From Flavobacterium aestivum (lineage in GTDB: Bacteria > Bacteroidota > Bacteroidia > Flavobacteriales > Flavobacteriaceae), in the NCBI RefSeq assembly GCF_026870175.2, contig NZ_CP113977.2, positions 4,278,001 through 4,342,000 of the forward strand: a stretch of 64,000 bases of DNA, written 5' to 3'. Positions 12,115 through 60,831 of this stretch are shown here, piece by piece (the first letter of the stretch is position 1; each line of letters starts with the position of its first letter). A program made the translations under genes and the position numbers. Under the pieces are notes generated by a model, which was not told the DNA's origin, ran no database searches, and saw only the letters and a program-made list of their open reading frames with translations.

Positions 12115-12180
12115 AATATCATTTCATTCTATTTCGACCCAAAAAGTCTTAATTTTATAACATACAGCTATTCTTGACAA

Positions 12181-12327
12181 TTTAGTCCAGACTGTAGTGA
12201 TACACCTCCAGAAAAAAACTATTTTTTCTTGTACCTACTGAGCGACTGGAGAAAGCACCTGTAAGACCAATAGAAAAACAGTTTTTTTCTGGATCTTATA
12301 ATGAATAACTAGAATAGCTCCTAAAAA
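12181..12327 (+). repeat. Intergenic structured repeat element, copy A (diverged)
   Basis: It begins TTTAGTCCAGACTGTAGTGA and ends AGCTCCTAAA, matching the ends of copies at 34.4, 38.0 and 60.7 kb with several changes. An internal perfect 13-bp stem, CCAGAAAAAAACT (12208-12220) with AGTTTTTTTCTGG (12280-12292), occupies the position of the internal stem in the other copies. The interior (ATTTTTTCTTG, then GAGCGACtGGA) is also alignable to copy C. It lies just before the antiporter gene in sense orientation. Confidence 0.55.
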
Positions 12328-34358: not shown

Positions 34359-34497
34359 TTTAGGAGCAGAAACATTTAGCATTCTATCAACATTACTCCC
34401 GCTATCCGTTTCACACGAGCGATAGCGAACTGACGAAGTAATCTTGCAAACCAAAACACCGGCTTACAAGGATTTCCACTTTTATCGGGGCTAAAAA
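34359..34497 (-). repeat. Intergenic structured repeat element, copy B (reverse orientation)
   Basis: Read on the minus strand it begins TTTTTAGCCCCGATAAAAGT, has GGAAATCC next, CGGATAGCGGGA further on and CTGCTCCTAAAAA at the end, matching copies C and D. The internal stem is CTTGTAAGCC with GGTTTGCAAG around an 8-base loop. All ten pairs form on the minus strand when two G-U wobbles are allowed. A copy of the CTTCGTCAGTTCGCTATCG sub-motif is embedded after the stem. Confidence 0.6.
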
Positions 34498-38020: not shown

Positions 38021-38196
38021 TTTTAGCCCTGATAGAAGCGGAAATCCTTTTTTGAATAAATCTATTTTTTCTTGAACAGACAGAGCGACCAACGGAAGCT
38101 CCTGACAGTTCTTAGAAAAAAAGATTTAAGAGAAAAAGATTATAGTGGATAGCAGGACGCATGCTGAACGAACTAACGAAGTAAATAGCTCCTAAC
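38021..38196 (+). repeat. Intergenic structured repeat element, copy C
   Basis: It begins TTTTAGCCCTGATAGAAGCG and contains GGAAATCC, TAGTGGATAGCAGGA and a final AGCTCCTAA. The internal stem is AAATCT with TTTTTTCT (38058-38072, one bulged A) paired to AGAAAAAAAGATTT (38114-38127), with nested GAAC/GTTC and GAGC/GCTC pairs. After the conserved GGA it also carries the sub-motif CGAACTAACGAAGTAA in reverse orientation relative to copy B. It fills most of the 305 bases between the glycosyltransferase and phosphohexomutase genes. Confidence 0.65.
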
Positions 38197-49516: not shown

Positions 49517-49686
49517 AACACTGCCTACATTAGTTCACATTTTGGTAAACTCAACACTAACAATTTAGAATGAGCAAATCATCACTACTAAAGCATGCCA
49601 CGCTTCGACGAGGAAACTTGAACAGTGAGTTAGCTCAAAACTTGTATTTCCGAGTTTATACAAGCAACCTAATGTAGGCTTTTTTT
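49517..49686 (+). ncRNA. ssrS: 6S-like regulatory RNA (6S-Flavo type)
   Basis: GCCTACATTAG (49523-49533) pairs perfectly over 11 bp with CTAATGTAGGC (49669-49679), closing a roughly 157-base rod, and a run of seven T's (49680-49686) ends it. Inside are further paired segments, such as CTTGTA with TACAAG (49640-49645 and 49658-49663). A long closing helix, an interrupted interior and a place directly after zapA are typical of 6S RNA, which binds the sigma-70 holoenzyme and mimics an open promoter. Bacteroidota versions were described as the 6S-Flavo class. The exact 5' end is not certain. Confidence 0.75.
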
Positions 49687-60698: not shown

Positions 60699-60831
60699 CT
60701 TTAGCCCTGATGGAAGCGGCATCTCCCGATTTAGAAAAACAAGGCTTTTTGCCGTAGTTTTTGTTAATCGGGAATATAGCGTACAGCAGGAATCATTTCT
60801 CCTGAAAAAGAAACAATAATTCGCTCCTAAG
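60699..60831 (+). repeat. Intergenic structured repeat element, copy D
   Basis: It begins CTTTAGCCCTGATGGAAGCG, contains GGCATC, ATAGCGTACAGCAGGA and ends TCGCTCCTAAG. The internal stem is CCCGATT (60725-60731) with AATCGGG (60766-60772), extended by AAAAAC with GTTTTT and closed by GGC-TTTTT-GCC. The stem sequence differs entirely from copies A, B and C while the ends match. It fills the gap upstream of the AAA ATPase gene, which starts 77 bases later. Confidence 0.65.

Follow-up and report, generated by a model that had tools for sequence, protein, structure and literature searches.

Flavo-1 elements of Flavobacterium as possible REP-like, single-strand-folding rods with exchanging apical stems

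REPs are intergenic hairpins of high copy number that occur in both orientations and are patchily distributed, and the attC sites of integrons combine conserved ends with a variable interior and are folded from a single strand. The family to which the elements described here belong, Flavo-1, is already known as Rfam RF01705, which Rfam types as a small-RNA gene. The accessible part of its discovery paper grades it as a probable RNA of the Bacteroidetes that is probably not cis-regulatory (PMC2864571), and a review, in the part available, ranks it with the commonest of the annotated small RNAs and names no function for it (PMC9029176). In the open-access literature searched, we found no function for Flavo-1, and neither the long form, nor the second base class, nor the in-place exchange of hairpin tips reported below; these are new here.

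We analyzed 64,000 nucleotides of Flavobacterium aestivum (contig NZ_CP113977.2, positions 4,278,001 to 4,342,000; the window), in which an earlier note had drawn four intergenic stretches (12181-12327, 34359-34497, 38021-38196, and 60699-60831; copies A to D) into one family for which it knew no name. The grouping holds, with our model R2 matching all four stretches and copy B lying on the minus strand, and the family does have a name: a family scan together with R2 identifies all four as members of RF01705, copies C and D scoring 60.0 and 53.2 bits against a gathering threshold of 42 bits. They share with RF01705 the conserved 5' and 3' arms, the internal loops, the variable central stem, and the range within Flavobacteriia, but the Rfam model, 76 positions long, describes no more than the base and a generic stem. 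It has no apical domain, no class-2 base, no GCTCC tail at the 3' end, and nothing on stem exchange. Like REPs and BIMEs, Flavo-1 is an intergenic, high-copy, patchy hairpin found in both orientations; unlike them, it is longer, strand-specific, and variable in its stems, with no linked RAYT found. It resembles MITEs in being non-coding and dispersed, with defined ends and one clean filled/empty pair, but no parent transposon was noticed in the loci read. The likeness to attC sites lies in the conserved ends, the variable interior, and the folding of one strand, whereas the Flavo-1 copies, in the loci read, are solitary and dispersed between host genes.

Table 1. Flavo-1 copies and their motifs in the window (position 1 is the first base of the window)
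Feature	Position	Strand	Description
Copy A	12180..12322	+	Diverged long-form Flavo-1; R2 56.5 bits, E 3.8e-12, outside the R2 training set
Copy B	34388..34496	-	Short-form Flavo-1, 3' arm with inserted stretch CTTCGTCAGTTCGCTATCGCTCGTGTG
Copy C	38021..38166	+	Long-form Flavo-1; base and core loops, then variable stems capped by the conserved apical loop
Copy D	60699..60800	+	Class-1 base bearing a widespread 50-nt apical stem (GATTTAGAAAAACAAGGCTTTT...)
Apical loop, copy C	38085..38099	+	Conserved GCGACCAACGGAAGC; position confirmed on the sequence
Apical loop, copy A	12242..12256	+	Variant GCGACTGGAGAAAGC
3' end motif GCTCCTAA, copy A	12317..12324	+	Sequence reading
3' end motif GCTCCTAA, copy B	34360..34367	-	Sequence reading
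3' end motif GCTCCTAA, copy C	38188..38195	+	Sequence reading and family tail logo
3' end motif GCTCCTAA, copy D	60823..60830	+	Sequence reading

Direct reading bears out a common 5' start (TTTAGCCC in copies B, C, and D; TTTAGTCC in copy A) and a common 3' GCTCCTAA in all four copies; the end that had been given for copy C, 38196, overshoots this motif by one base. The common middle that the earlier note described stands in copies C and D, the only ones to match it at three mismatches or fewer (0.10 expected in shuffles), and fails as a strict motif in copies A and B, where it reads AATGAATAACTAGA and AACGGATAGCGGGA, respectively. Copy B scores 35.9 bits with RF01705, under the cut-off, and copy A is absent from the Rfam matches of the window at E ≤ 1. 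Of our two models, R1, the first, is a short-form model whose training set included copies B, C, and D, and R2 is a long-form model trained with copy C and without copies A, B, and D. R1 gives 60.3 bits to its training member copy B and 13.4 bits to copy A (E 0.0013; 320 nt, filters off), which is absent at E ≤ 1 from a wider R1 scan. R2 recovers all four copies from the 64 kb, with 128.6 bits for its training member copy C, 48.5 bits (E 4.1e-10) for copy D, and 32.2 bits (E 5.5e-6) for copy B, and is the only model to detect copy A clearly. The window also holds a 6S-Flavo RNA match (49549-49657, plus strand; 82.7 bits, slightly under the 85-bit cut-off).

Pairing in these elements is maintained while the sequence changes, as had been proposed, and real copies are better paired than shuffles in both a short and a long alignment. 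Among 28 aligned short copies, which are Rfam hits and thus selected partly on structure, 93.9% of cells are paired compared with 74.8% in shuffles and at most 45.9% when partners are slid, covariation is 0.549 compared with 0.188, and pairs changed on both sides number 13 compared with 10.3. Covariation in the 28 short copies and in the 23 long ones described below backs the RF01705 structure and, along with the R2 matches, supports the earlier suggestion that structure is under selection. Mismatches in 122 short hairpins (out of 150 extracted from 152 copies) comprise 42 G-T or T-G, 8 A-C or C-A, and 41 others; this excess of G-T over A-C indicates that one defined strand folds, the Rfam strand, called plus here. 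In the long form, where all pairs together contain 39 G-U and 32 A-C, the wobble excess is weaker. RNA energies make the plus strand the stabler of the two in 149 of 203 copies (21 of 32 long forms), and DNA energies do so in 180 of 203 (29 of 32), locus L393 being omitted from the comparison. Such energy models do not decide between RNA and single-stranded DNA; the loops and wobbles are RNA-like.

The sequences further suggest a long form of Flavo-1 of about 146 nt, predicted to form a 48-bp rod that is interrupted by conserved internal loops and closed by the apical loop GCGACCAACGGAAGC. Elements with this common loop were revealed by a comparison of orthologous gaps, and one of them, L345, is absent from the Rfam list of its genome. 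The 15-mer occurs exactly in 42 of the 81 genomes of the genus and its reversed-pattern control in none of the 81. A rough script assigned 30 fetched loci with the motif to class 1 (15), to a partial base (5), or to none (10), and by eye all 30 have at least one Flavo-1-like arm. In an alignment of the 22 loci with class-1-like arms and copy C (n = 23), 87.4% of cells over 48 pairs are paired compared with 68.9% in shuffles, 36 of the 48 pairs have changed on both sides compared with 26.7, and covariation is 0.500 compared with 0.166. Slid partners pair in at most 55.4% of cells, a comparison that favors the drawn structure because this was taken from the fold of one member; a fairer measure, for that reason, is the exchange of halves among 32 long forms, where the mean duplex energy is −45.8 kcal/mol for halves of the same copy and −25.2 kcal/mol for halves of different copies, and the own partner is the best one in 20 of 32. 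Below the apical loop, pairing in the stem reaches 83%, whereas 500 partner shuffles give a mean of 59% and a maximum of 66%. R2 matches occur in at least 51 of 196 genomes of the order and in at least 12 of 72 genera, with the best 16 candidates or fewer scored per genome. When eight long-form or class-2 loci were compared with Rfam, RF01705 was listed for four, over its cut-off in one, and no other family exceeded its own cut-off on these loci, a weak mir-208 match overlapping one of them.

The family logo is sharply bounded, running from about YYYTAGCCCnGAT to GCnGGA...AGCTCCtaAAA. The 152 oriented copies behind it comprise 52 copies of this genome and 100 of the highest-scoring ones in ten relatives; 137 served for the upstream part and 136 for the tail. 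Across those 137, the 100 nt before the element carry no conserved signal. The motif CTTnTRAAA occurs in the first 40 nt upstream of 30 of 203 copies; the second 40-nt bin has it in 2 copies and the third in none, and this concentration in the nearest 40 nt indicates that part of the family has an extra 5' piece. A second base class, GCGT..AGGGAT..AGCCCGACC..ACGC, takes the place of class-1 TAGCCC..GGGA in some copies: a script assigns 172 of 203 to class 1, 14 to class 2, and 17 to neither, several of these 17 resembling, to the eye, one of the two. Of 81 genomes of the genus, 16 contain a 22-nt piece of copy D's 50-nt stem, and in 30 fetched loci the stem sits on both bases (14 class 1, 10 class 2, 1 partial, 5 unclassified). 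Palindromes like TCCCGATAGCTATCGGGA or TCCCGAAGCTTCGGGA stand within the 3' internal loop of L066, L336, L383, and L404, and small modules (AGTTCAGTGAACTTCGTTTG and its variants; CTTCGTCAGTTCGCTATCGCTCGTGTG) replace or interrupt one arm in L067, L370, L373, L419, and copy B.

The "swapped internal stem" of the earlier note proves literal between species. From genomes G006 and G015 we fetched 35 copies each (out of 40 and 41) and obtained 17 orthologous pairs, 13 at first pairing and 4 among the comparisons of unshared sites; in our reading, 11 of the 17 keep the base and the orientation and differ in the apical stem, and in 6 (L211, L213, L310, L318, L321, and L333) the stem is the same or nearly so. 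The stems of L310 and L329 are a single compensatory double change apart, so ordinary compensation also occurs. In two pairs, L206/L336 and L319/L244, the stem is a different one while the arms and the adjacent flanks hardly differ; the L336 stem is one base off that of L300 in the same genome, which makes L300 a candidate donor, and L206 shares a different stem with its G008 orthologue, L240. We infer stem exchange from this candidate donor and from the recurrence of the long stem at different loci. Identical stems were counted in 15 of 1,979 pairs within genomes and 25 of 13,421 between genomes, rRNA-linked copies excluded; for GC-richer stems the figures are 2 of 873 and 8 of 3,783, so the within-genome excess is not robust.

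Across the whole genome RF01705 matches 56 times at E ≤ 10; 38 matches lie above the cut-off, which it exceeds in none of 14 control genomes, although 10 of these match at the loose E ≤ 10. A further 40 genomes yielded 26 with matches at E ≤ 0.001, with no control among them matching. Copy number is patchy: with up to 89 candidates scored in each genome, the 25 congeners compared (this genome among them) range from 0 copies to at least 88 in G004, with 44 in G011. Two patterns gave no match in viral contigs, and one 85-nt example, a single sequence, gave none among plasmids and phages.

The 152 oriented copies lie in tandem gaps (47 with and 48 against the genes), between divergent genes (39), or between convergent genes (16), with one flank missing in 2, and 13 of them overlap a mechanical ORF of at least 70 aa; in this genome the 52 copies divide into 31 tandem, 16 divergent, and 5 convergent. 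The shares of 63, 26, and 11% (of 150) follow the distribution of intergenic sequence, of which 67, 22, and 10% of the bases in a 400-kb sample of this genome fall into these gap types, so the available space by itself accounts for the gap types. The fixed orientation to neighboring genes that characterizes a cis-regulatory leader is not found in these tandem copies, nor in the long forms, 8 of which run with and 11 against their flanking genes in tandem gaps. A replication-strand preference is likewise not established, since the orientations of 54 copies stand at 37 to 17 if dnaA marks the origin and at 28 to 26 with the GC-skew axis.

As the earlier note remarked, the neighboring genes are unrelated, yet many sites are conserved between species. 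Both flanking genes are shared by 36 between-genome pairs of copies, all with the same orientation, and one gene by 41 other pairs, some within a genome, a few of which disagree in orientation or side (for example L143/L171, L153/L249, and L158/L162). Of 80 relatives, 11 have an R1 match (E ≤ 0.001) on the same strand and with another stem in the gap of copy C (L065, L067-L070, L072, L076, L077, L079, L080, and L083); most of the remaining relatives, some Flavobacterium species among them, have none there. This gap precedes a phosphoglucomutase-type gene, the relatives of which place the genome in Flavobacterium, and, in L068, L070, L074, L076, L079, L081, L082, L085, L088, and L089, contains a small gene, partial in some, which by eye we take to be ORF6N/KilA-N-like. 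Five copies lie upstream of 16S rRNA genes (L013, L015, L019, L021, and L022, elements at about 1501-1578), and in this genome the identity of the rRNA operons stops near the Flavo-1 3' end. We considered whether Flavo-1 is the end of a larger mobile element and rejected this, the five copies with some 1.5 kb in common upstream proving, by eye, to stand before 16S rRNA genes. The near-identical G006 copies L205, L209, and L212 have a flanking gene in common with some rRNA-linked copies or lie near contig ends.

Out of 25 unshared sites asked in the other genome of the G006/G015 pair, 21 were matched: one was a clean 107-bp empty site (L307/L350), one held a decayed-looking remnant, one a RAYT-type REP pair instead, 4 were orthologous elements missed at first, and 14 were diverged or unclear. 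ATAA stands on both sides of L307/L350, possibly by chance in this one clean pair of 21, and the ends of copies A to D amount to TTAG...CTAA at most as terminal repeats. For copy B no empty site was found in the 11 relatives compared, where the gap is much longer and different.

High copy number and intergenic hairpins would suit a REP mobilized by a Y1/RAYT transposase, and this genome has two Y1 matches and a third, RAYT-like match. Still, the two RAYT-like Y1 genes read, L031 and L032, are flanked by REPs of other kinds (CCTAACAGGTTT...AAACCTGTTAGG and CCTACAAGGTTT), and no Flavo-1 lies in their two 3-kb loci; the copy-rich G004 and G011 gave nothing at E ≤ 0.001 with either the Y1 profile, which is weak on this subgroup (4.3e-5 and 7.1e-4 for this genome's own genes), or the RAYT protein query, and the queried RAYT subgroup does not track Flavo-1 copy number. 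These searches linked no recombinase or transposase to Flavo-1. We therefore rejected this partner and regard such mobilization as very improbable. A REP pair of the L031/L032 kind occupies the place of Flavo-1 at the orthologous site L347. Quasi-palindrome correction yields perfect palindromes of changing sequence, and could keep pairing by mutation alone, with no selection. Such a process would be expected to be strand-blind, however, against the 42 to 8 excess of G-T over A-C, and would leave the conserved loops and arms and the 50-nt stem at many loci unexplained, and we give it hardly any credence.

An RNA role, in which copies are transcribed, fold, and work in trans or bind a protein, gains from the strand-specific, G-U-tolerant fold (42 vs. 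8), the purine-rich internal loops, the fixed apical loop, the strong covariation, and the grading by Rfam and the discovery paper; it is weakened by upstream sequences that, over 100 nt in 137 copies, show nothing conserved, by unbiased orientation (47 vs. 48; long forms 8 vs. 11), and by the Flavobacterium psychrophilum transcriptome, where, in the accessible part of the report, hits fall indistinctly in sense and antisense and many lie outside transcribed regions (PMC9723704). The earlier note left the choice between an RNA and a REP/MITE-like element; these were the right options, and gene context, the absence of an upstream signal, and that transcriptome, as far as its report is accessible, favor the REP-like one; we consider an RNA role rather unlikely. 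Also rather unlikely, in our judgment, is a role of each copy as a structural DNA site under local selection, for instance one bound by a chromosome-organizing or insulating protein, and kept by purifying selection. Conserved position and orientation in several species, bases that by eye seem better conserved than flanks, and the position of some of this genome's copies ahead of rRNA operons agree with such a site, but some congeners have few copies or none, the first pairing of 35 with 35 fetched copies in G006 and G015 gave only 13 orthologous pairs, gap types match intergenic space alone, and the 50-nt stem at many loci suggests copying.

We favor, over a cis-regulatory RNA and with about even confidence, the reading of Flavo-1 as REP-like interspersed elements that fold as a single strand and exchange their apical stems. 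It builds on what was observed directly: the structure, the strand preference, the neutrality to gene orientation, the persistence at orthologous sites, and the change of stem on the same base. The plus strand, as DNA or RNA, would fold into a rod whose complete form of about 146 nt would rise from a basal stem through purine-rich internal loops and variable stems to the fixed apical loop; the short form would retain base and core, with a simple hairpin replacing the apical part, and long forms may give rise to short ones. A putative trans-acting factor would recognize base and core, and the apical stem would need only to form a hairpin. Stems may be copied from another copy by gene conversion or template switching between the near-identical arms that flank the hairpins, and new copies would appear rarely. 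The comparisons between species suggest that the tip is replaced in place while the base stays; intact bases persisting in diverged species also fit plain selection for a local function. Flavo-1 might even be a recombining element of an unrecognized class, its conserved base and core serving as an address at which a dedicated strand-specific or RNA-templated enzyme would swap apical cassettes (the simple hairpins, the 50-nt stem, and the GACCAACGGAA-loop domain) between dispersed chromosomal sites and between the two bases, a reading that we consider rather unlikely.

If the copies are indeed exchanging REP-like rods, as in the reading that we favor, their annotation as small RNAs misleads across the Flavobacteriales. 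The long form is a defined object for structure probing and for the search for a partner protein, and in-place exchange of hairpin tips would, if true, be an unusual kind of sequence turnover in bacterial chromosomes.
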